From Paenibacillaceae bacterium (lineage in GTDB: Bacteria; Bacillota; Bacilli; Paenibacillales; CANHGK01): DNA of 64,000 nucleotides. Both the position numbers and the translations under genes were made by a program. The number at the start of each line of letters is the position of its first letter. Position 1 is the first letter of the stretch. Below are positions 2,023 to 48,529 of the stretch, piece after piece. Where the stretch lies: assembly GCA_947460235.1 (NCBI GenBank), contig CANHGK010000006.1:62001-126000 (forward strand), read 5' to 3'. The notes below the pieces were generated by a model, which did no database searches, was not told the DNA's origin, and saw only the letters and a list, made by a program, of their open reading frames with translations.

Positions 2023-2739
2023 GTGAATGAGTGGATGCGGAGGGCGATTGAAATGCAAATTACGATTACGGAAGCCATTTGGATGTATGTAATCTCTACG
2101 TTTTTGGCGGTGATTTTTGATGTAATGATGATTAAATTTTCGACGGGTGACGCGAGGACCATTGGATTGATTTTACTTGTAAAATCGCTCTCATTACTCA
2201 CCGTTGTCAGCTTGTTTTTTACGAATCCGCTTCGTTTGCTATATACAGATTGGATCATCACGACGCCGCTCACGCTATTGACATTGGCATTGTATGCCAT
2301 GATGCGGAAATCAAAACACAAAATGTTGATTTTTGGATTGGTCGTGACTGATCTGATAATGATTACTTTAGGATGGATCTCCGCATACGCTCCGCCAGCT
2401 ACGAAGTGGTGGTGGTTTGGAATGGCCATTTTGCCGATGTTCGTTATTTTATATTTGCTTTATAAGCCGTTAAGTCGTATTGCAAAACAACAACCTGCAG
2501 AAATCAATAATCGTTATCGGTTTTTAATTTCGTTTACCGCGCTTACTTGGGGCGTCTTTCCTTTAATTTGGGTGCTGGGTCACTTTGAGAACGGTGGACT
2601 TTCCATGGAATCGTTACTGACCATTTTTAATGTGATGAATGCGTTGACGAAAACAACCTATATTTATTGGATTTTCCGCAGTCTCAAAGGGATAAGCTGG
2701 AATCGGGAAGTCGGAGGTGATTCTCCTGAGCTGGTTTAG
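2023..2739 (+). CDS. Microbial (type 1) rhodopsin heading a germination operon
   Basis: A 238-residue protein with seven hydrophobic segments (roughly 13-34, 44-68, 73-93, 101-121, 127-148, 163-187, 196-219). Helix C reads YTDWIITTPL, matching bacteriorhodopsin Y83-L92: D76 = D85 (primary acceptor), W77 = W86, T80 = T89, P82 = P91. D110 = D115. Helix F holds W176, F179, P180, W183 (= W182, Y185, P186, W189). Helix G FNVMNALTK aligns with proteorhodopsin YNLADFVNK and puts the retinal Schiff-base lysine at K210. Departures: D96 = T87, R82 = L73, D212 = N206. Family knowledge: such proteins bind retinal and act as light-driven pumps or sensors; the missing donor and altered counterions favour a sensor or slow photocycle (inference). 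GTG 2023 has AGGGGAAGG seven bases upstream; ATG 2053 (GGAGGG eight bases upstream) is an alternative that removes ten residues. The 3' end overlaps the next gene. Confidence 0.9.
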   Translation: MNEWMRRAIEMQITITEAIWMYVISTFLAVIFDVMMIKFSTGDARTIGLILLVKSLSLLTVVSLFFTNPLRLLYTDWIITTPLTLLTLALYAMMRKSKHKMLIFGLVVTDLIMITLGWISAYAPPATKWWWFGMAILPMFVILYLLYKPLSRIAKQQPAEINNRYRFLISFTALTWGVFPLIWVLGHFENGGLSMESLLTIFNVMNALTKTTYIYWIFRSLKGISWNREVGGDSPELV

Positions 2740-4264
2740 ACGACTGATCGGCGGTGCAGAAATTCCCAAAGAAGATGCGCAATTCAGTCATGATATTGAT
2801 AAAAACATGGATGCGCTGCGCGAACTTTTCGTTGACACCGATGATTTTCGAATTCGAGAATTTCAAATTAATTCTACGAAACCGACGCGGGCTTGTGTGA
2901 TTTATTTAAATACAATCGCAGATGAGAAAATAATTCGTGAAGAAATCATGCGCACGTTGATGCAAAAATTGCCACAATCCGTGCAAGAACTTCGTTCTTT
3001 GCAAATTTCTTTGCTCCAACACTCGGTTTTATCTTCAAGTGATATGGTTCAATCCACATCCGTCCGAGAAGCAGTACGAAATATGATGATTGGTTCAACA
3101 CTATTGTTCATTGAGAAATCGGATCAATGTTTAATTATTATGACACCATGGAGCAATAAGCGTGCAATTTCGGAACCAGAAACAGAATCAGTTAGTCGTG
3201 GTCCACATGATGGGTTTACGGAACTAATTTCTGATAATATCGGAATGGTTCGCAGGAGAATCAAAGATCCAAGTCTCAAAATTGTATCGTATACACTCGG
3301 TGCAAAAACACAAACAAAGGTTTCAATGATGTATTTAAAAGATTTGGCATTACCTGAATTGGTAAATGATGTGTCCGAGCGATTAAAAGAAATCCATACG
3401 GACAGCATTTTGGAAAGCGGAGATATTGAGGAGTTTTTGGAGGACGATGCACTGACACCGTTCCCGCAAGTTGAAGTGACTGAGCGTCCGGATAAATCAG
3501 CAGCGGCCATGTTAGAAGGACGAATCATTATCCTTGTCGATGGCACACCAGGTACTTTGGTTGTTCCGACTACTTTTTTTCAATTGGCTCAAACACCTGA
3601 AGATCATTATCAACGGGCAATTTTTAGCTCATTTAAACGAATATATCGATTACTCGGTTTTATTTTGGCGACTAGTTTGTCTTCGTTTTATTTAGCATTG
3701 GTCAATTATAGTACGCATTTGATTCCCGTAAAATTGGTTCCGGTATTAATGACGAAACGTGCAGAAGTTCCATTTCCTCCTTTGTTAGAGTTAATTATTA
3801 TGCAAGTACTTATTGATATGATTTTAGAGGGGAATTTGCGGATGCCTGCAAAATTAGGACAAACACTTGGCGTAGCTGGTGCGATTGTCATCGGTCAAGC
3901 TGCAATTACCGCAAATTTGATCACGCCTGCGGTGGTCATTGTCGTGTCCGTAACAACGATTACCGCCTATTTGCAACCAAGATTATCGAACTCGTATTCA
4001 ATCATTTGGATCCGGTACTTTAACATGCTGATCGCGTCAATGTTTGGATTTTTTGGTATTGTTGTTGCTTGGATGTTTTGGGTGATCCATTTATGTTCTT
4101 TGCAATCGTTTCGGACTGCATATTTTGCACCGATCGCGCCATTCAAGTGGAGTGATTGGAAGGATGCCATAATTCGTGTTCCCAAATGGGCCATGACCAA
4201 ACAGCCTTCTACGCCAGGAACATTACAACCGAACAAAATCCCGAAGGGAGAAATGAAACATTGA
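2717..4264 (+). CDS. Spore germination receptor A subunit (GerA family), first copy
   Basis: About 515 residues of the GerA/GerKA/YfkQ family, the A subunit of inner-membrane nutrient germinant receptors. A soluble N-terminal domain (to about residue 290) ends with the conserved TERPD stretch (255-259), followed by PEDHYQRA and four to five hydrophobic segments including LIPVKLVP and KLGQTLGVAGAIVIGQAAI, all family hallmarks. The gene overlaps the rhodopsin by up to 23 bases. Its start is unclear: GTG 2717 lies inside a near-perfect Shine-Dalgarno (GGAGGTGA, 2713-2720), which is better placed for CTG 2726 (protein then begins MSWFRRLIGG). Either way translation is probably coupled to the rhodopsin. 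The downstream B gene starts on TTG at its stop codon. Confidence 0.93.
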   Translation: MILLSWFRRLIGGAEIPKEDAQFSHDIDKNMDALRELFVDTDDFRIREFQINSTKPTRACVIYLNTIADEKIIREEIMRTLMQKLPQSVQELRSLQISLLQHSVLSSSDMVQSTSVREAVRNMMIGSTLLFIEKSDQCLIIMTPWSNKRAISEPETESVSRGPHDGFTELISDNIGMVRRRIKDPSLKIVSYTLGAKTQTKVSMMYLKDLALPELVNDVSERLKEIHTDSILESGDIEEFLEDDALTPFPQVEVTERPDKSAAAMLEGRIIILVDGTPGTLVVPTTFFQLAQTPEDHYQRAIFSSFKRIYRLLGFILATSLSSFYLALVNYSTHLIPVKLVPVLMTKRAEVPFPPLLELIIMQVLIDMILEGNLRMPAKLGQTLGVAGAIVIGQAAITANLITPAVVIVVSVTTITAYLQPRLSNSYSIIWIRYFNMLIASMFGFFGIVVAWMFWVIHLCSLQSFRTAYFAPIAPFKWSDWKDAIIRVPKWAMTKQPSTPGTLQPNKIPKGEMKH

Positions 4265-5355
4265 ATCGTCCACCTCATTCGATGAGTCTCCATGCCAGCC
4301 AATTTGCGATGATGTTAATTGGGTGTACTGTTGGAATCGGCCCATTGTTTATTGCTCGCATCGCAACAGTTGCAAGTGGTCGTGATGCTTGGATCGTATT
4401 TTTGATCTATTTAGCAATCATCTTATGTAACAGTTTGATCATGGTACAACTTGCAAAACGTTTTCCCAAACAGACGTTTGTTCAATATGTTCCTGAACTC
4501 GTTGGCACATGGATTGGCAAATGTATCGGGTTCATCCTCATTGTTTTAGGTATTCTAACAATAGCAGTAACGATGAAGATTCTTTCGTACATTATCGCGA
4601 CATACGTGTTATTAAAAACACCAATGGACATGTTCAACGTAATCATCCTGATGCTTTTAATCTATCTTGTCATGTTTGATTTGCGGGTCATGGGCAGACT
4701 GGCAACTGGGTTATTTTTCGTTTCTTTCTTATTTTCGTATTTTTATATTCCACCCGTTAATGATTATGGAAATGTACTGCTACTGATGCCGTTTTTTGAA
4801 AATGGTTGGCAGGGGATATGGAAAGGGTTGGGTGCAATATTGTTTTCACTCTCTGGATTGGAACTGTTCCTGACTTATTATCCTTATGTTGATGACAAAC
4901 GAAACATGCGTAAATATTTTATTTGGTCGATCTTATTTGTAGGGTTATTATTTGAAATTTCCCTGTTCACGCAACAACTTGTGTATCCACTAAAATATCT
5001 TGCGCATTTATGGGCGCCGTCAATTCATTACATATCGATTGTTGAATTTCCAGTATTTGAACGAACTGATGCGATTTTTACTATTTTTTGGTTTACCGTA
5101 CTTTTTAAGACGGCTGCAGTCTATATGTACCATTCGGTCATCTCGATTCAGCAAGTGTTTCAGGTTCATCAAAAGCGGATTATTGTTTTTTTGGTCGCTG
5201 TGCTTGGATTTGCGGTGACCAAGATGATCGGAAATGCTGCTGATATTGAAAAATGGATGATCTATGTATTGACTGCGAACGTAGGTCTTTCATTAATCTT
5301 ACCAAGCCTATTGCTCATGATTGCTAAGTTTCGCAGGAAGGGATTGGCTGGATGA
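4261..5355 (+). CDS. Spore germination receptor B subunit (GerB family), first copy
   Basis: A 364-residue membrane protein of the spore permease family (APC superfamily), the B subunit of Ger receptors, thought to contact the germinant. About ten hydrophobic helices; the N-terminal MSLHASQFAMMLIGCTVGIGPL and the later YPYVDD segment are typical. I start it at TTG 4261, which overlaps the A-gene stop (TTGA) and has AAGGGAG ten bases upstream; a start at 4156 would run 35 codons back into gerA without a suitable site. That gives the normal family length. It ends in a 4-base ATGA overlap with the C gene. Confidence 0.93.
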   Translation: MNRPPHSMSLHASQFAMMLIGCTVGIGPLFIARIATVASGRDAWIVFLIYLAIILCNSLIMVQLAKRFPKQTFVQYVPELVGTWIGKCIGFILIVLGILTIAVTMKILSYIIATYVLLKTPMDMFNVIILMLLIYLVMFDLRVMGRLATGLFFVSFLFSYFYIPPVNDYGNVLLLMPFFENGWQGIWKGLGAILFSLSGLELFLTYYPYVDDKRNMRKYFIWSILFVGLLFEISLFTQQLVYPLKYLAHLWAPSIHYISIVEFPVFERTDAIFTIFWFTVLFKTAAVYMYHSVISIQQVFQVHQKRIIVFLVAVLGFAVTKMIGNAADIEKWMIYVLTANVGLSLILPSLLLMIAKFRRKGLAG

Positions 5356-6452
5356 AACGGATATTGCTCGGATGCTTCATCGGGTTGTTGGTGATCACCT
5401 TGACTGGTTGTTGGGATTATCGGCCGTTGGATGAAGATTTCATGATCACTGGCCTTGGAATTGATCATAGTCTCGGTGACGAATCAAAGCTTGAAGTGAC
5501 TGTGTTTGGCGTTGCTTATACAGAACAAGATCATACGCTAAGTGGTCAAGGCTCCTCAATCTCTGAAGCAATTAGTGAAATACAAGATAAGACGGAGAAA
5601 TTCCTGTCATTTAGTCACATTCAGATTTTATTGATTTCAAAAAGTGTCGCGAAGAAAGGGATTTCTTCGATCATTGATGTCATGCTTAGGGATTCACAAG
5701 TACGTAATTTTATTAATGTCGCATTGGTTGACGGACGTGTCAGCGATTTTCTTCAAAAAGGCAAGGAATATCCTGTCACGGGAAGTACATTCGAAGCACT
5801 TTTGAAATCGGCAGATTTAGGGTTCCCTAACCAACTCTTGCATTTGGAAACGCTGGCGATGAATCTATATTCCGGCGCGTCAGGGTTTATTTTACCGATC
5901 TTAAAAATCGATAAAGTAAGCCGAATCATCTCATTAAAGGGATTTGGTGTATTCAAAAGAGATCGATTCTTGGAAGAAATCGATCGAAAGCAAATGATCG
6001 GCTTTTTACTATTGATGCAACGATTAGAATATGCCAATCTCACGATTGGAACGATCAATTTAGACAACCCCGATCAACGCGTGTATTCCGTGAAAATTAA
6101 AGCGGCGAGTACTCATGTGCGCGTTGTCATTGACAAAGATCAACCAACGTTCATCTATGATCTCGGATTTTCAGGTGCATTGTTGGAAAAAAATCCAGTA
6201 CCGCTCGGTGGCATTTCGGCGGATGAAATCAAACGTATCGAAAGTGAATTAACGGAAGAACTTAAGAAATCGATGCTTAACGTTTTGCGTAAAATTCAAA
6301 AGGATCAGATTGAACCGTTTGGTCTTGGCGAGTATGCACGGGTATATTGGCCAAAAGGATACAAAGAAGCTCAATGGGAAGAGCAATTTTCAAAAGCTAA
6401 GATTGAAACGAATATTCAGGTGAACTTGGTCTTTTATGGACAAACATTATAA
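5352..6452 (+). CDS. Spore germination receptor C lipoprotein (GerC family), first copy
   Basis: A 366-residue lipoprotein of the Spore_GerAC family. The signal peptide ends in a lipobox LTGC with C20 as the predicted acylated residue, followed by the family's WDYRPL (usually WDxxEL) and GLGID. GerC subunits sit on the outer face of the spore inner membrane with the A and B subunits. The start overlaps the gerB stop by ATGA. The body keeps typical GerC features (SxSEAISEIQ, HIQILLIS, YWPKGYKEAQWEE near the C terminus). It closes the first A-B-C set. Confidence 0.94.
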   Translation: MKRILLGCFIGLLVITLTGCWDYRPLDEDFMITGLGIDHSLGDESKLEVTVFGVAYTEQDHTLSGQGSSISEAISEIQDKTEKFLSFSHIQILLISKSVAKKGISSIIDVMLRDSQVRNFINVALVDGRVSDFLQKGKEYPVTGSTFEALLKSADLGFPNQLLHLETLAMNLYSGASGFILPILKIDKVSRIISLKGFGVFKRDRFLEEIDRKQMIGFLLLMQRLEYANLTIGTINLDNPDQRVYSVKIKAASTHVRVVIDKDQPTFIYDLGFSGALLEKNPVPLGGISADEIKRIESELTEELKKSMLNVLRKIQKDQIEPFGLGEYARVYWPKGYKEAQWEEQFSKAKIETNIQVNLVFYGQTL

Positions 6453-6483
6453 ACATGGAATCTTATCAGAGTAGGTGAACGTG

Positions 6484-7929
6484 ATGGGGTGGTGGAATTG
6501 GTTACAGGAAATCGATGCTCCTTCTTCACAAACGTGTGTAACGAAATCTGTGAACAAAATTCATGAAACATTTATCAATCGTGCAGATTGGAAAAAAAAC
6601 GAACTGCTTATCGGGAACTCGAAGGCTAAGGCAATTCTCATATACCTTGATTACACGGTTGATCAAAATACATTGCGAAAAGATGTTGTGGAACCATTAT
6701 TACATTTTTCTAAGACAACAAAATTACCACAAGAATGGACCTTAAGTGAATCGATTTCTTGTGGTGATCTTTTACTCGTTCAACAACGGTTACTTGAAGG
6801 TTCTGTGGCTGTTTTTATTTCAGGGTCTACAAAATGCTTCATAATTCGTGCACCACGTGCGGTTGTGCGTGCGGTCGAGTCGCCCGAAATGGAATTTACA
6901 ACAAGGGGACCAAAAGAAGGCTTTATCGAAGACGCATCACAAAATATTGAAATGATTCAGAAACGATTACGTACGGACAAACTTGAGTTACGTTCTTTTC
7001 GATTAGGAAAAATTACGCAGACGAATACATGGTTATTATCCCTGAAAGGAATTACTTCACCTGAGTTAATCGAACGAGTCACATCTAAATTGAATCAAAT
7101 CACGGCAGATCAAATGATTGATAGTTGTGAGGTGGAAGAGTATTTGGAGGATTCAGCGTGGACTCCCTTTTCTGTAATTAATACGACGGAGCGCCCGGAT
7201 CGGTGTGTAGGAGCGTTAATGGAGGGGGGGATTGTCTTGCTTGTTGATGGCAGCCCAAATGCACTGATCGGTCCATATACTTACTTTCAGCAATTTCATA
7301 CACCAGATGATTATTACCAACGTGCAATGTATGCAACGATTAAACGTTGGATACGGGTAACCGGATTTTTTTTATCAACGAATTTAGTTGCTTTATATAT
7401 GGCGTTGATTGGGTTTCATTCTCATTTGATTCCAGTCAAACTAGTTACTATTTTGTCATTGAAACGTGAATCGGTTCCTTTTCCGCCAATGATCGAAATT
7501 ATGATTATTCAATTGATGATCGATCTGGTATTGGAAGGAATCTTACGATTGCCACCAAAATTAGGTCAAATTATTGGTGTATCTGGAGCGATTATTATTG
7601 GGCAAGCAACAATTTCAGCGGATTTAATCTCACCTATGGTCATTATTATCGTTTCGGTATCAACCATTTGTGGCTACGCACAAGCTCGGTTGTCATCAAC
7701 GTTTACGGTACAAGTGATTCGTTATGTGAATTTACTATGTGCTGGAATATTAGGGGCCTTTGGACTTACTGTGATATGGATTTTTTGGTTGATTCATGTT
7801 TGTAGTTTACATTCACTAGGAAAAGCATATTTGAATCCAATTAGTCCTTTTTCGATGGTAGCCTTAAAAGATACGATCTTGAGAATTTCTAAACGTGCGA
7901 TGGGTAATAAGTCACCAAACGTGATGTAA
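6484..7929 (+). CDS. Spore germination receptor A subunit (GerA family), second copy
   Basis: A 481-residue second GerA-family A subunit, clearly paralogous to the gene at 2717 (shared TERPD at about 235-239, YYQRA, LIPVKLV, PPKLGQIIGVSGAIIIGQA, LIHVCSL). ATG 6484 is preceded by AGGTGA with a 5-base gap; GTG 6481 is possible, and GTG 6475 lies inside the ribosome binding site. The gap to the first gerC is only about 30 bases without a terminator, so one transcript is likely. It differs from the first copy throughout its N-terminal domain, which suggests a receptor of different specificity rather than a recent duplication. Confidence 0.93.
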   Translation: MGWWNWLQEIDAPSSQTCVTKSVNKIHETFINRADWKKNELLIGNSKAKAILIYLDYTVDQNTLRKDVVEPLLHFSKTTKLPQEWTLSESISCGDLLLVQQRLLEGSVAVFISGSTKCFIIRAPRAVVRAVESPEMEFTTRGPKEGFIEDASQNIEMIQKRLRTDKLELRSFRLGKITQTNTWLLSLKGITSPELIERVTSKLNQITADQMIDSCEVEEYLEDSAWTPFSVINTTERPDRCVGALMEGGIVLLVDGSPNALIGPYTYFQQFHTPDDYYQRAMYATIKRWIRVTGFFLSTNLVALYMALIGFHSHLIPVKLVTILSLKRESVPFPPMIEIMIIQLMIDLVLEGILRLPPKLGQIIGVSGAIIIGQATISADLISPMVIIIVSVSTICGYAQARLSSTFTVQVIRYVNLLCAGILGAFGLTVIWIFWLIHVCSLHSLGKAYLNPISPFSMVALKDTILRISKRAMGNKSPNVM

Positions 7930-7946
7930 GGAAGTGAACTGATTAA

Positions 7947-9035
7947 ATGAACAGAGATCAACCCGTAAATACATTAAATGGATTACAATTGTCTTCAATT
8001 ATTTTGGGTGCGATGCTAGGTTTAGGTCCGTTGATGAATGTACGATTTGCAACATTAGAAGCAGGGCGAGATGCATGGATATCGATAATCCTTGCAGCAA
8101 TACTCATTCTAATCAATTTATGGATCATGACTCGTGTGGTTATGATTTATCCAAATAAAACCATTGCACAAATCATTTCGGGATTAATGGGTACATGGCT
8201 AGGTAAAATAGGAAATGCAGTGAACCTTGTACTTTCTTTAATGATCTGTGCGATTACACTTTGGTACACAGGTCATATTTTTAATGTATATATATTATTG
8301 TTCACTCCGAGTATCGTTCTATCTTCATGTTTGTTGTTCGTGAGTGTATACACGACTTGGTTTGATGTGCGAATTATTGGCCGAGTTGTTGTCGTTCTGT
8401 TTTTTGTTTCGTTTTTATTTGCTATTTTCTTTGTGCCGCCCGTATTGCAATATGGTCAAATCGAGCGCATACTTCCCATCGGGAAAACTGGATTTTCAGG
8501 GATTTGGCATGGAATGTTGATGGTGATGTATAGTTTTGCTGGATATGAACGTTTTTTAGTGTTTGCTCCGTTCTTAGATAAGTTCCAAGGGATGACACGA
8601 TCCGTTTTGTTGTCTGTATTTTATGTGAGCTTGATGTTTATCGTGGGCGCGATTTGTGAGCAATTGGTATATCCAATCTTGTTTTTGCAAAAACTTTGGA
8701 CGCCAGGAATAGAGTATGTTTCGTTAGTGAATATATCAATTCTAGAACGAACAGATTTAATCTTTATTTTGTTTTGGTTTGGCGTTTTATTTAAGACGCA
8801 TGTTTCTTATTTTTATAGTGCAGTGCTTGAAATGAAAGAATTGATGAATGCCAAATCAAAAACGCCTGCAATTGTGGTTTCAACTATTATCATCTTTGCG
8901 ACGTCATTCATTAAAGTGAACAATGTGGAAATGGAAAATTGGATGTTTTGGACACTGTCTATTACGGTTGGAATTTCTTTTATCATTCCCATCAGCATCA
9001 TCACCATGGGCTGGTTAAAACGAAAGGTGCAATAA
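7947..9035 (+). CDS. Spore germination receptor B subunit (GerB family), second copy
   Basis: A 362-residue spore permease family protein with about ten membrane helices. It begins MNRDQPVNTLNGLQLSSIILG and contains the GxGPL element near residue 25, as in the first copy. The ATG at 7947 follows GGAAGTGA about nine bases upstream and comes 17 bases after the A-gene stop. Its length and helix pattern match the first GerB, but many loop residues differ. It is presumed to form the receptor with the flanking A and C genes. Confidence 0.93.
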   Translation: MNRDQPVNTLNGLQLSSIILGAMLGLGPLMNVRFATLEAGRDAWISIILAAILILINLWIMTRVVMIYPNKTIAQIISGLMGTWLGKIGNAVNLVLSLMICAITLWYTGHIFNVYILLFTPSIVLSSCLLFVSVYTTWFDVRIIGRVVVVLFFVSFLFAIFFVPPVLQYGQIERILPIGKTGFSGIWHGMLMVMYSFAGYERFLVFAPFLDKFQGMTRSVLLSVFYVSLMFIVGAICEQLVYPILFLQKLWTPGIEYVSLVNISILERTDLIFILFWFGVLFKTHVSYFYSAVLEMKELMNAKSKTPAIVVSTIIIFATSFIKVNNVEMENWMFWTLSITVGISFIIPISIITMGWLKRKVQ

Positions 9036-9036
9036 G

Positions 9037-10143
9037 ATGAAACGAATGAGGATCATTTTTTGTATTTTATTGCTCTGTTGTTTGCTGAGCGGATGCTGGG
9101 ATTATGCTCCTTTGGAAGACAAGTATATTGTAACAGGAATAGGAATTGATATCAGCGAACAAGATCCAATGAATATGGATATATCAGTCCTCGGAATTTC
9201 AAACATCCAAGCGAATGCTACGATGCATGGAGAAGGACGAACGGTCAGTGATGCACTTCGATCCATTCAAAATAGGATCGATAAAGCAGTGCTCATTAGT
9301 CATTTAAAAATCGTTTTAATTTCGGATCGAATTGCGAAAAAAGGGATTCAAACGTATTTGGATATTTTGAGTCGTAATTCACAAATTCGTAGCGACACAC
9401 AAATTGCCTTGGTTCATGGGCGAGCGGCCGATTATTTTGTGCAGAAAAATTTTTCAATTCCGATTGATGCGAGTTACTATTCAGATACGTTTCAATTAAG
9501 TGAAACGATCGTAGATCCTCATGAATTTTTTCTGAATTCGATATTGTTTCGGCTTTCAGAAGATGGCAAAGGGTTTGCGATTCCTTATTTAAGATGGGAT
9601 CCAAAACAAAAATTACTCGTTTGGTCAGGGATTGGTCTTTTTAATAATGGTTTTTTCAAAGATACGTTGGATGAACGAGAAACGGTTGCTTATTATTTAA
9701 TAAAAGGAAGTTTGTCGCGAGCGATGATTACGATTGGAAGAAGCAGTCCGCAACTACCAAAAGCACAAGCAGTCTCTATTCGAATCTTTTCACCAAGTCG
9801 AAAATTATCATGGTCTGATCAAAATGGAGTGAAAACAATTAATTTGTCAATTCAATTAAAAGATGAAATCATTGAAGCATCACCGCTCAACAATCGTCCG
9901 ATTACGAGTCAAGAACTCGAGCATCTTCAAAATGACGTAAATCATGACCTGACGCATCTACTGCATTCGGTAATGGACAAAATCCAAAAAACCGATCGGA
10001 TGGATCCGTTCGGTTTTCAGGAAAAAGCGCGTGTACAGTGGCCTAATTGGTATCAAGGTGACCATTGGAATGAGCAATTCTCGGCGGTTAAATGGAAATT
10101 TGATGTGCAGATATTGATTGAACGATTCGGGAAGTTCATATAA
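9037..10143 (+). CDS. Spore germination receptor C lipoprotein (GerC family), second copy
   Basis: A 368-residue GerC-type lipoprotein. The lipobox is LSGC with predicted acylated C20, followed by WDYAPLED and TGIGID. The ATG is one base after the gerB stop, and AAAGGTG lies inside the end of gerB, so translation is probably coupled. It is the last gene of the run of seven. The stop at 10143 is only three bases from the stop of the convergent GH18 gene, and no clear terminator fits between them. Confidence 0.94.
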   Translation: MKRMRIIFCILLLCCLLSGCWDYAPLEDKYIVTGIGIDISEQDPMNMDISVLGISNIQANATMHGEGRTVSDALRSIQNRIDKAVLISHLKIVLISDRIAKKGIQTYLDILSRNSQIRSDTQIALVHGRAADYFVQKNFSIPIDASYYSDTFQLSETIVDPHEFFLNSILFRLSEDGKGFAIPYLRWDPKQKLLVWSGIGLFNNGFFKDTLDERETVAYYLIKGSLSRAMITIGRSSPQLPKAQAVSIRIFSPSRKLSWSDQNGVKTINLSIQLKDEIIEASPLNNRPITSQELEHLQNDVNHDLTHLLHSVMDKIQKTDRMDPFGFQEKARVQWPNWYQGDHWNEQFSAVKWKFDVQILIERFGKFI

Positions 10144-10146
10144 CAG

Positions 10147-12087
10147 TTACTTCCATCGTGGCAGTTGTTCCCACAAATCTGCTGGTTCGAATCCGAGACG
10201 CCATGCAGCGACGCCGTGTAGGTCGTACTCTTTGGCAATTTGAAAACGTTGTTGCATCGTAGTGGCATCTTCTTGCCATACAGAGTACTTTTCGTCTTCA
10301 ACGGTCAAATTATAACGTAGTGTCCCAGCTTGTTGATCTGATTGCGAACTCGTTGGATTGCCGGTAATCCAGGTTGGTAAATCACGCATCCACACGGTAC
10401 GGTTGGAGGTTTTACCTTTTGAATCCACGATGGGCATTCCGTCGTTATTTACTTTCCACATGCGCGTATAAAAAGGTACGCCAAGTAGAAGTTGGTCGCG
10501 GCGGATGCCATCATTTAAGAAAAGTTCAACGCCTTCTTTGACCCATTGCAGTGATGCGACAGATCCAGCGGTTTTGCTGCCACGATAGTGTTCGTCGTAG
10601 GTCATAATCGCAATGTAATCAAATGATGGTGCAATTTCTTTGCGATCGAATGCAGTTTTATCATCCCATTTGGAGTCTCCGCGGTTCAAATCGATCGACA
10701 CGGTAAGCCCTGCATTCTTTACATAAATCGCGAAGCGCTTGGCAAATGCAGTGAATAATACACGATCTTTACCGCTGACGCCTTCAAAATCTAAATTTAA
10801 CCCGTCCAGATGCAATGTTTTGGCTCGTGCTACAAGCGCATTGATCCATTTTAATTGTGCTTTTTTTGAGCTTAAAAAACGATGTGTGATCTCATCGTCG
10901 AATTGATTATGAATGAGTGGATGCACTTCAATTCCGCGTTCGTGCAGCCAGTTTACGAGATTCGAATCGCTTTTGTCTGTCAACCCGCCTTTGCTGTCTT
11001 TGAGAATAAACCATGTTGGTAAACTGACATCAAGCCCGGATGCTTGCTCAACTTGAGTACGCAATTCTTCAGCCGAAACATCACCGTTCCATGCCCACAT
11101 CTGAAGTGCACGTTTCGCTTGCCATATGATATTTCCGTCATCCCCAACGACAACCGCATCTCCGTTCTCTTCTGCAAGGGTTCGAGCTTGCTGTAGCGAC
11201 CATACTTGAGCAATCAAGGGAGCATCCCATTCATCGCGCACCATGATTTTATAGGTGGGAATCTGTTGCCATATTGTTTGACCGTTCCATTCGATCGATG
11301 TGTTTGGATTTTCGCTTGCGAGTTGAATTGCTTTTGTGATCGACATCAAATTTTCTCTGGTGCCACTCACGGAATCGACGATCGTATATGGCAGTTTGTT
11401 GCGGTACACTATTTTTTTTGTGCTTAAATCGATGATCTTTGCATTTTCGATGCCGAGCGCAGTTTTAATTGCTTGAATGATTGATTTGTTGGTCGTGATC
11501 TTTGTTCCTGTACTTTCGGAAGTAATTTCGTAACCACTTTTTGATGATTTCGGTAATAACCACGTTTGTTGAAGTGTTGATTTCGTTAGGTTGATTAGCC
11601 AACCTGAACGTTTTTTCTTTTTTAATCGAATGATCTCGGCATCTGCATCGGACTTCTTCGTAAACGAATGCGGTGATTCTGCTTTATCTAATGAATAGAC
11701 AAGCCAGCGTGGATACGTATCCGAGATCCAGCCAGGATGTTCCAAATCACGGACTGCAGCGCGTTGAAATTTTAATGCGGCACGTTGAGCGCTTACTTTA
11801 TCAGAATATACGAGAGATGGATTATTTCTGCCTTCAATTTCTACGCTAAATTTCGGGACGTTTGAGTATACCCATTCACGGGATGGAATGCTTTCGACAT
11901 AACGATACATTGCATTCGAAGCATAACGAATTGCATCTTCGCGATTCGTAAATTCTTTCAAAATGTGATCTCGTTCATAGACGCGGTAATGAGACATTAT
12001 GGTTGCATTGGCTTGTCCAGTAGGGAAATAGATAAATACGAAAATGAAGCTGAAAAATAACGGTAGTAATCTGGTTGCGTTGGTCAT
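10147..12087 (-). CDS. Secreted GH18 glycosidase with six N-terminal repeats
   Basis: A 646-residue protein from ATG 12087, preceded by AAGGAG about nine bases upstream; a longer frame to 12177 has no ribosome binding site. Residues 1-28 form a signal peptide (MTNATRLLP then a hydrophobic core, PTGQANA). Residues about 31-325 hold six degenerate units of 44-49 residues, each with Y-x-V near the start, an F/S-x3-A helix and a closing W-x-x-x-P. Residues about 335-646 form a GH18 barrel with DGLNLDFE (428-435; E435 is the expected acid) and IAIMTYDEHY. Spore GH18 proteins such as SleL/YaaH act on cortex fragments, but those carry LysM domains, not this repeat. It converges on the ger operon with a 3-base gap; a link to germination is inference. 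Confidence 0.85.
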   Translation of the reverse strand: MTNATRLLPLFFSFIFVFIYFPTGQANATIMSHYRVYERDHILKEFTNREDAIRYASNAMYRYVESIPSREWVYSNVPKFSVEIEGRNNPSLVYSDKVSAQRAALKFQRAAVRDLEHPGWISDTYPRWLVYSLDKAESPHSFTKKSDADAEIIRLKKKKRSGWLINLTKSTLQQTWLLPKSSKSGYEITSESTGTKITTNKSIIQAIKTALGIENAKIIDLSTKKIVYRNKLPYTIVDSVSGTRENLMSITKAIQLASENPNTSIEWNGQTIWQQIPTYKIMVRDEWDAPLIAQVWSLQQARTLAEENGDAVVVGDDGNIIWQAKRALQMWAWNGDVSAEELRTQVEQASGLDVSLPTWFILKDSKGGLTDKSDSNLVNWLHERGIEVHPLIHNQFDDEITHRFLSSKKAQLKWINALVARAKTLHLDGLNLDFEGVSGKDRVLFTAFAKRFAIYVKNAGLTVSIDLNRGDSKWDDKTAFDRKEIAPSFDYIAIMTYDEHYRGSKTAGSVASLQWVKEGVELFLNDGIRRDQLLLGVPFYTRMWKVNNDGMPIVDSKGKTSNRTVWMRDLPTWITGNPTSSQSDQQAGTLRYNLTVEDEKYSVWQEDATTMQQRFQIAKEYDLHGVAAWRLGFEPADLWEQLPRWK

Positions 12088-12205
12088 AATCGTCCACTCC
12101 TTTTCTTCGGTTAATATACGAAAGAAAGTAGCGTTTGGTTGCGCATCGCGGTAATATGAAATTAATCTGTACTTCAACAGTTACCGTAATCTTGGAGGTG
12201 TAGAA

Positions 12206-12787
12206 ATGAGTTCCACAACAAATTTACCAAAAGCATGGATCGCATATGTTTCTGCTTATCAGGTGGAGCGGGATTATTTCGAGTGTCACGAAATTCTTGA
12301 AGAATATTGGAAAGAATGTGCGGAGTCGCGACGACCACAACCCGGTTGGGTAGGTTGGATCCAACTTGCAGTCGCGCAGTATCATGAACGCCGAGGAAAT
12401 GTTGGCGGTGCAATCAAAATGTTAACGTCCGCTCTCGATATTTTGCGAACATTCGAAAATTGGGTAGATGACTTAGGCATTAATTCTGGCGTGTTGCTCA
12501 AGGCGATAGAGATGCGCTTGCAACTACTAGAATCTCGAAAAGTAAAATCAATTGATGAACTGCGTACGCTATTTAATGATTTAGATTTACCCTTAAATGA
12601 TTTGTTTTTAAAATATGCAGCACTCGAGTTTTATCAGAAACATTACGGCTCAGAAGGGAAATGGGGAATACCGAGTCGTGATGTCGATGTATTTATTTTG
12701 AATAAACATACGCTCCGTGATCGTTCCGAAGTTATTGAAGCCCGCGAGCGAGCTGTAAAGATCAAAAAAAACACGCGGGAACAATAA
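12206..12787 (+). CDS. DUF309 family protein
   Basis: A 193-residue cytosolic protein with the DUF309 signature near the N terminus: DYFECHEILEEYWKE, then GWIQLAVAQYHERRGN and GAIKMLTSAL. This all-helical family is common in Bacilli and has no established function. ATG 12206 follows GGAGGTG at a good distance. It is divergent from the GH18 gene with about 120 bases between. The last codons of the gene form the 5' arm of a terminator that works for the opposite strand. Confidence 0.88.
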   Translation: MSSTTNLPKAWIAYVSAYQVERDYFECHEILEEYWKECAESRRPQPGWVGWIQLAVAQYHERRGNVGGAIKMLTSALDILRTFENWVDDLGINSGVLLKAIEMRLQLLESRKVKSIDELRTLFNDLDLPLNDLFLKYAALEFYQKHYGSEGKWGIPSRDVDVFILNKHTLRDRSEVIEARERAVKIKKNTREQ

Positions 12788-47033: not shown

Positions 47034-47942
47034 ATGTTTCAAGATGTTCGAATTGTTGTCATTGGCGGTGATTTAAGGCAAGTAGAAGTTGTGCGCGAAT
47101 TATTAAAGGAAGGTGCACAGGTTAATGTGTTTGGAATGGAAAAGGCATTGGGTTTATTGCCTGCTGAGGTACTAAAAACGTGGTCTTCCTCAGATATGAA
47201 TGAAGTCATGTCTAATTGTGATGTATTACTTTTACCTGCACTTAGTTGCGATGAATACGACCGCATTTCGGGCGGATTAACAGATCATTATTTTGAACTT
47301 GATGATCATTTTATGGATGCAATTTTAGAGAAGACGCTAATCTTTACTGGGGTTGCACATGAACGTTTTCGATCGCGATGTACAGCACGAGGATTGCACT
47401 TGATAGAGCTTTTTGATCGAGATGATGTGGCCATCTATAATTCCATTCCAACAGCGGAAGGTGCGGTAATGATGGCAATAAAGGAAACGGATCGGACGAT
47501 ACACCAATCGAATTGTATGGTGCTTGGGATGGGTAGAACGGGAACAACGCTTGCACGATTGTTAAAAGCGATGGGGGCAAATGTATCGATCGGAGTACAT
47601 CGTCCAGAACAAATGGCACGCGCGTATGAAATGGGTTTTGATGCCTTTAATACAGCGGATTTGGAGGAAAAAATGGAAGGGATTCACTTGCTTTTTAATA
47701 CGATTCCATCTATGATAGTCACAGCGCAAGTAATCGTTCGGATGTCTTTAGATACGGTTTTGATAGATCTCGCTTCCAAGCCGGGCGGGATTGACTTTCG
47801 TTATGCAGAGAAACACGGTGTTAAGGCAATTTTGGCACCAGGTTTACCAGGTCTCGTAGCTCCTAGAACTGCCGGAGAAATCATTGCCGGATGCGTGAAA
47901 CAATTTCTTGTTTCACACATGAAAGGTTCGGTGACGGCATGA
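47034..47942 (+). CDS. dpaA: Dipicolinate synthase subunit A
   Basis: A 302-residue DpaA/SpoVFA. DVRIVVIGGDLRQVEVVRELLKEGAQVNVFG is the N-terminal nucleotide-binding region, and MVLGMGRTGTTLARLLKAMGANVSIGVHR is a second Rossmann motif, as in the family; LIDLASKPGGIDF and LAPGLPGLVAP follow. With DpaB it oxidises (dihydro)dipicolinate precursors to dipicolinic acid in the mother cell, giving spores heat resistance. Its stop overlaps dpaB by ATGA. Confidence 0.96.
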   Translation: MFQDVRIVVIGGDLRQVEVVRELLKEGAQVNVFGMEKALGLLPAEVLKTWSSSDMNEVMSNCDVLLLPALSCDEYDRISGGLTDHYFELDDHFMDAILEKTLIFTGVAHERFRSRCTARGLHLIELFDRDDVAIYNSIPTAEGAVMMAIKETDRTIHQSNCMVLGMGRTGTTLARLLKAMGANVSIGVHRPEQMARAYEMGFDAFNTADLEEKMEGIHLLFNTIPSMIVTAQVIVRMSLDTVLIDLASKPGGIDFRYAEKHGVKAILAPGLPGLVAPRTAGEIIAGCVKQFLVSHMKGSVTA

Positions 47943-48529
47943 GAGATTGGTCTGGAATAACGGTCGGTTTTGCATTGACGGGTTCGCATTGCACCTACGC
48001 AGAGGTGCTTCCTCAAATGGCAAGGTTTATCGATCATGGGGCCGAGGTGGTACCCATCATTTCTCATACCTTACAGACGACGGATACCCGGTTTGGCGCG
48101 GGTTCCATTTGGATTGAGCGGATCTCACAACTAACGAAACAGAACGTGATTTCAACGATTGTCGAAGCGGAACCGTTAGGACCATCGAAACGATTGGACG
48201 TTATGGTAATTGCACCGTGTACAGGTGCGTCGATGAGTAAGTTAGCCAATGCGATTACGGATAGTCCCGTATTAATGGCCGCGAAAGCTCAAATGCGTAA
48301 CTTACGTCCATTAGTAATTGCGATGTCTACAAATGACGGACTTGGTCTGAATGCAGCCAATTGGTCTAAATTGATTAATGCAAAGAATATTTATTTTGTA
48401 CCATTTGGTCAGGATGCACCGGAGTTGAAGCCAAATTCCTTGGTTGCCCAAATGGATTTGATAATGGAAACATGTGCTGCAGCTTTAGATGGAAAACAGA
48501 TGCAGCCTGTACTTATTGATCGGCGATAA
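47939..48529 (+). CDS. dpaB: Dipicolinate synthase subunit B (flavoprotein)
   Basis: A 196-residue flavoprotein of the SpoVFB/UbiX-like fold: GFALTGSHCTYAEVLPQM, VVPIISHTLQTTDTRFG, DVMVIAPCTGASMSKLANAITDSPVLMAAKAQMRN and PLVIAMSTNDGLG. ATG 47939 overlaps the dpaA stop; an upstream in-frame extension to 47891 lies within dpaA and has no site. It forms dipicolinate synthase with DpaA. asd and dapA downstream supply the dihydrodipicolinate branch. Confidence 0.96.
   Translation: MRDWSGITVGFALTGSHCTYAEVLPQMARFIDHGAEVVPIISHTLQTTDTRFGAGSIWIERISQLTKQNVISTIVEAEPLGPSKRLDVMVIAPCTGASMSKLANAITDSPVLMAAKAQMRNLRPLVIAMSTNDGLGLNAANWSKLINAKNIYFVPFGQDAPELKPNSLVAQMDLIMETCAAALDGKQMQPVLIDRR

Follow-up and report, generated by a model that had tools for sequence, protein, structure and literature searches.

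A microbial rhodopsin gene leads every gerABC operon detected in two spore-forming lineages and suggests that light helps decide when their spores germinate

Introduction

Endospores are woken by nutrients and other chemicals as well as by physical triggers such as pressure. We know of no Ger operon that includes a rhodopsin, and a literature search, beyond whose reach most subscription papers lay, did not turn up any description of a rhodopsin associated with Ger receptors. The receptors themselves are nutrient-gated ion channels, some of which possess an extra, modulating D subunit (PMC13170314, PMC11841064). For a connection between light and a bacterial resting cell, the nearest precedent is the light-triggered germination of Rhodospirillum centenum cysts, which sense light through their photosynthetic apparatus and need no photoreceptor (PMC8092318). 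Among the microbial rhodopsins, the xenorhodopsins are the closest solved relatives of the protein described here; they are defined by a proline at the position of D212 in bacteriorhodopsin (BR) (PMC3198991).

Here we report on a 64,000-nucleotide stretch of DNA from a Paenibacillaceae bacterium (contig CANHGK010000006.1, positions 62,001 to 126,000), hereafter termed the window, in which a rhodopsin gene precedes two sets of germinant-receptor genes.

Results and discussion

Architecture of the operon

An earlier note, made from the sequence alone, had described seven genes on one strand at 2023–10143 of the window, namely a type 1 rhodopsin followed by two complete GerA-GerB-GerC sets, and had proposed a photosensory input to germination. 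Re-reading of the sequence and matching of Pfam families confirmed the order, strand and coordinates of all seven genes, so that A, B and C subunit genes indeed stand together twice, as in a GerA-type receptor operon. The features are as follows (window coordinates).

1943–1979, + strand: intrinsic terminator of the upstream YyaL/DsbH-like gene, predicted left border of the operon (17-pair stem, 3-nt loop, T-rich tail)
2023–2739, + strand: type 1 microbial rhodopsin, 238 aa, Schiff-base lysine K210, counterion D76 (PF01036, E 5.7e-25; PDB rhodopsins down to E 6.6e-18)
2717–4264, + strand: GerA1, A subunit of the first receptor (PF03323, E 1.4e-160)
4261–5355, + strand: GerB1 (Spore_permease), B subunit of the first receptor, start TTG 4261 or ATG 4282 (PF03845, E 4.8e-51)
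5352–6452, + strand: GerC1 lipoprotein, C subunit of the first receptor (PF25198, E 1e-27; PF05504, E 6.6e-24)
6475–7929, + strand: GerA2, A subunit of the second receptor, possible ATG start at 6484 (PF03323, E 1.5e-133)
7947–9035, + strand: GerB2, B subunit of the second receptor (PF03845, E 6.6e-41)
9037–10143, + strand: GerC2 lipoprotein, C subunit of the second receptor and last gene of the operon (PF25198, E 1.2e-29; PF05504, E 1e-19)

The tight spacing that had been noted holds throughout: neighbouring genes overlap or lie no more than about 31 nt apart. GerA1 and GerB1 overlap by 4 nt (TTG 4261) or are separated by 17 nt (ATG 4282), GerB1 and GerC1 overlap by 4 nt, and the remaining junctions are gaps of 22–31 nt (GerC1/GerA2), 17 nt (GerA2/GerB2) and 1 nt (GerB2/GerC2). 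Both GerC products match the N and C domains of the family, and the translation of GerC1 carries the lipobox LTGCWD. Translation of the rhodopsin may begin at GTG 2023 or at ATG 2053; a plausible ribosome-binding site exists for either, with a good Shine-Dalgarno sequence at ATG 2053. At its other end the rhodopsin gene overlaps gerA1 by 23 nt at most, and both the gerA1 Shine-Dalgarno sequence GGAGGTG (2713–2719) and the gerA1 start lie inside the 3′ part of the rhodopsin gene (GGAGGTGATTC at 2713–2723). Judging from this arrangement, the two genes are therefore very likely translationally coupled.

The claim that no terminators interrupt the operon also stood up. The one strong terminator, at 1943–1979, lies just upstream (MFE –23.3 kcal/mol, z –6.9 against shuffles), and the weaker terminator-like matches inside the operon are about as many as chance would give (7 for the region as a whole vs 6.7 expected). 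We thus regard the seven genes as a putative cotranscribed unit with predicted borders. A search for a sigma-G promoter upstream of the operon gave nothing convincing. Convergent with the operon, on the – strand, lies a large gene for a GH18 (chitinase-fold) protein (10147–12177). Spore cortex-lytic enzymes occur among GH18 proteins, and this may be a germination gene too.

Conservation of the rhodopsin–ger pair

The earlier note had suggested scanning related genomes for the same pair. Among 399 genomes of the order, the rhodopsin profile exceeded its cut-off in four, the source genome and three others. The pair is indeed kept in a MAG of a different family within the order (genome G002), where the rhodopsin gene directly precedes gerA. 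This locus, L031 (also L004), is situated on contig CANHCR010000025.1 of the Bacillales MAG and comprises four overlapping genes.

8241–8915: rhodopsin, overlapping GerA
8912–10339: GerA, overlapping the rhodopsin and GerB (GerA profile)
10336–11439: GerB, overlapping GerA and GerC (GerB profile)
11412–12539: GerC, overlapping GerB (assigned by gene order and sequence)

The fixed pair is known from these two lineages, which belong to different families. In the genomes G019 and G248, the gerA genes are located on other contigs than the rhodopsin gene or far away from it. A search of genome contigs with a two-row rhodopsin alignment returned only L031; viral contigs yielded no further members, plasmids only ordinary rhodopsins, and class- and phylum-level genome samples only other rhodopsins. 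We also considered that the linkage might be a one-off or an assembly artefact, which is ruled out by the same pair in a separate MAG of another family.

Phylogenetic trees supported a common history of the linked genes. GerA1, GerA2 and the L031 GerA form one clade in the GerA tree of 22 rows (100/100), and the same three-member, rhodopsin-linked clade is found in the GerB tree (100/99). Independent acquisition of rhodopsins beside unrelated Ger genes is therefore unlikely. The rhodopsin tree joined the window and L031 proteins at moderate support (78/89), as expected from such long branches. Within the GerA clade the L031 protein groups with GerA2 (100/98), which suggests that two receptor sets already stood behind the rhodopsin in the ancestor and that one of them disappeared from G002. 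Between the lineages, GerA identity is about 43% and overall rhodopsin identity about 21–28% depending on the method; judged from this divergence, the association is therefore old.

Rhodopsins in general spread by horizontal transfer, and the gene might thus be a genomic neighbour only, coexpressed with the operon by accident and acting alone in the growing cell. Such transfer is documented for xenorhodopsins (PMC3198991), and the operon borders were drawn from sequence. However, adjacency, order and gene overlap are the same in two families despite the low rhodopsin identity, whereas a given slot among ~2,500 genes would be hit by chance with a probability of about 4e-4 (arithmetic), and no Ger gene occurs in the ~1.5 kb flanks of 27 other bacterial rhodopsin loci (0/27). 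We consider accidental neighbourhood very improbable.

Receptor repertoire of the two genomes

The source genome and G002 are both about 99% complete. The former has three GerA-family genes and the latter two. In each genome, one of them occupies the SpoVAF position between sigF and lysA, and the remaining ones belong to the rhodopsin operon (two in the source genome, one in G002). In the 22-row tree, the GerA-like genes from the sigF–lysA position (L050, L043) fall into a SpoVAF-like clade (100/100), with the rhodopsin-linked GerAs outside. No GerB was detected outside the rhodopsin operons in either genome, GerB1 and GerB2 being the only ones in the source genome. Given the completeness of both assemblies, every gerABC receptor that can be found is thus rhodopsin-linked. 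In these two sporulating lineages, members of different families, the rhodopsin consistently comes first in the only operon of the gerABC type that was found.

At the sigF loci (L062, 6649–11108; L063, 6492–10906) the SpoVAF-like gene directly follows sigF and is itself followed by lysA, with no spoVAA–spoVAE between. B. subtilis differs, with spoVAA–spoVAE genes at that position. The window further contains a gene for dipicolinate synthase subunit A (spoVFA-like, 47034–47942) followed by a flavoprotein (spoVFB-like) gene, the pair spanning 47034–48529; the dipicolinate synthase gene is consistent with a real spore former.

Identity of the rhodopsin and its retinal site

The product of 2023–2739 matched Bac_rhodopsin (PF01036; E 5.7e-25, 88.5 bits, cut-off 24.6) over the seven-helix domain (residues 18–213 to profile positions 6–213 of 224). 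In a phmmer search against the PDB the best matches were the xenorhodopsin BcXeR (E 6.6e-18), DTG rhodopsin, archaerhodopsin and ASR; NCBIfam held no family for the protein. Together with the Pfam matches of the Ger subunits, these results bear out the family calls of the earlier note. Its residue assignments agree as well with an alignment to BR: D76, W77, T80, P82, W176, P180, W183 and K210 correspond to BR D85, W86, T89, P91, W182, P186, W189 and K216, and K210 thus occupies the position of the retinal lysine. This placement rests on the alignment because the AF2 models of the two Ger-linked rhodopsins are weak (pLDDT 60.7 and 74.5, four-row alignment). For each of these low-confidence models, the best 50 Foldseek matches listed consisted entirely of microbial rhodopsins and designs derived from these (probability 1.0).

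Schiff-base lysine and helix C aspartate counterion are present in both lineages (K210/D76 in the window, K207/D69 in L031). In BR numbering, the two proteins have D85, W86, T89, T90, P91, M118, G122, W182, P186, W189 and K216 in common, and T at 93 and F at 185 are unique to them among the rhodopsins in the table. The residues associated with outward proton pumping of the BR type are absent: R82, D96, E194, E204 and D212 are replaced by L, T, F, L and N in the window protein and by F, I, F, M and Q in that of L031. Y57 is apparently lost in both, in a helix B where the alignment is less certain. The asparagine and glutamine of helix G (N206 and Q203, respectively) also take the place of the proline that defines xenorhodopsins. 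Ordinary xenorhodopsin-like genes with this proline were seen in other Bacillota (L002, L027, L077).

The two Ger-linked rhodopsins agree at 15 of 19 retinal-pocket positions vs 29 of 190 elsewhere (Fisher 1.7e-8), which argues that retinal binding is under selection. The retinal site thus appears to have been maintained during drift of the remaining protein and loss of the usual proton path. Such a combination would suit a photosensor or photoswitch more readily than outward pumping, while some inward transport of the xenorhodopsin kind is possible. As a light-driven ion transporter, the predicted rhodopsin would move protons, possibly inward. The inner membrane would thereby change its electrochemical state, and ion release through GerA would be primed or opposed by electrical coupling and not by contact. 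Its nearest solved relatives, BcXeR, are inward proton pumps, and the first step of germination is ion release (PMC11841064). Xenorhodopsins likewise keep D85, lack D96 and have D212 replaced, although by proline (PMC3198991) and not by the N/Q found here. R82 is missing from both Ger-linked rhodopsins, although each of the 11 other bacterial rhodopsins in the alignment retains it, and pumping by itself leaves the rhodopsin–gerA overlap of both lineages unexplained. We therefore regard a transporter role as unlikely.

Source of the chromophore

The earlier note had seen no retinal-synthesis gene in the window, and this observation extends to the whole source genome, in which no phytoene synthase (about 99% completeness, while 7 of 14 control genomes match), no Blh and no carotenoid oxygenase were found. 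Blh, for which a plasmid positive control gave a match, and carotenoid oxygenase were also not found in G002. This genome does contain one gene of the phytoene/squalene synthase family beside several desaturase-like genes (CrtI/CrtN-type by inspection; L064, 425–12687), a group that, by inspection only, looks like a C30 (staphyloxanthin-type) carotenoid cluster. Hidden chromophore synthesis elsewhere in the genome was considered as well, but none was found, the phytoene synthase family gene of G002 sitting in the C30-like cluster. With no retinal-making gene found in either genome, retinal, if used, must come from outside.

The missing genes also speak for a receptor subunit with no light function, which might assist the receptor structurally or as a chaperone, or might be a chemosensor for which retinal (or a related aldehyde) is a germinant or co-germinant. 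Extra membrane (D) subunits are known from Ger operons (PMC13170314). The lysine, the counterion and the Trp/Pro pocket have, however, been kept despite heavy drift elsewhere. Moreover, neither Blh nor carotenoid oxygenase was found in any of four other rhodopsin-bearing Bacillota genomes tested (4/4, including G433, tentatively Exiguobacterium-like). The same holds for G248 and G719, the two genomes tested among those with ordinary xenorhodopsin-like genes. Lack of these genes is thus common and a weak argument against a working pigment, and a subunit indifferent to light seems to us about as improbable as a transporter, if not marginally more so.

A model for light input to germination

The suggestion of the earlier note that the rhodopsin modulates or gates the receptors with light fared differently in its two parts. 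The anatomy was upheld and extended by the pair in another family, the single clade of linked receptor genes and the lack of other gerABC sets; the photosensory half gained indirect support from the conserved pocket and the loss of several pumping residues. We consider a photosensory input to the germinant receptor the most likely reading (probability roughly 0.6), in which the predicted rhodopsin would act on GerA, the ion channel of the spore membrane, as a modulator. We would put at slightly better than even a stronger version, in which the receptor channel contains the rhodopsin as an integral, light-sensing subunit and endospores of genomes in which no other gerABC sets were found combine nutrients and light to germinate.

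In such a photosensory system, the seven proteins would be produced jointly in the forespore and delivered to the inner membrane of the spore. There, as their families indicate, GerA would act as a cation channel, GerB would bind the germinant and GerC would sit on the outer face. The rhodopsin, loaded with retinal taken from outside, would lie against the GerA/GerB subunits in the manner of an additional (D-type) membrane subunit. Its helices could then move on photoisomerisation and raise or lower the chance of GerA opening, so that light would serve as a co-signal integrated with nutrients at the receptor and not as an energy source. We infer the steps from retinal binding to channel modulation; the sign of the light effect (promoting or blocking germination) is not predictable from sequence.

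If this model is true, light at the receptor would be a new sensory modality for endospores, the Ger channel would accept a second gate of a non-chemical kind, and germination would become open to optogenetic control. No receptor operon without a leading rhodopsin was found in either lineage, and light may therefore be a general requirement for waking. This would suit spores that have to tell surface water from sediment, a habitat we presume. Taken together, the findings suggest that light helps decide when these spores germinate.

Comparison with known systems

The operon shares the A-B-C order and the Pfam families of GerA-type operons such as gerA, gerB and gerK of B. subtilis and gerI of B. 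cereus, the last with a D subunit; extra small membrane subunits are thus known there too. It differs in that a rhodopsin is the first gene and overlaps gerA, an arrangement seen only in the two lineages described here. Xenorhodopsins (BcXeR of Bacillus coahuilensis, ASR) provide the nearest solved sequences and, for the low-confidence models, the nearest folds, and likewise keep D85, lack D96 and have D212 replaced, whereas the Ger-linked rhodopsins have N/Q in helix G instead of the defining proline, have lost R82 and are set in a ger operon.

As in the sensory rhodopsin–transducer pairs of the SRII–HtrII type, the rhodopsin gene adjoins the gene of the membrane protein whose activity the rhodopsin would control, and SRII–HtrII structures were among the best Foldseek matches of the low-confidence AF2 model of the L031 rhodopsin. 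The partner there is a chemotaxis transducer, here a germinant-gated ion channel. R. centenum likewise uses light as a germination signal for a bacterial resting cell, but its cysts are not endospores and their sensor is the photosynthetic apparatus. Bestrhodopsins, in which a rhodopsin is fused to a bestrophin channel, are multimeric ion channels gated by light. They work in the way proposed here for rhodopsin and receptor, with the difference that the rhodopsin of the ger operon is encoded by a separate gene, is not fused to its partner and would act on a spore receptor channel.
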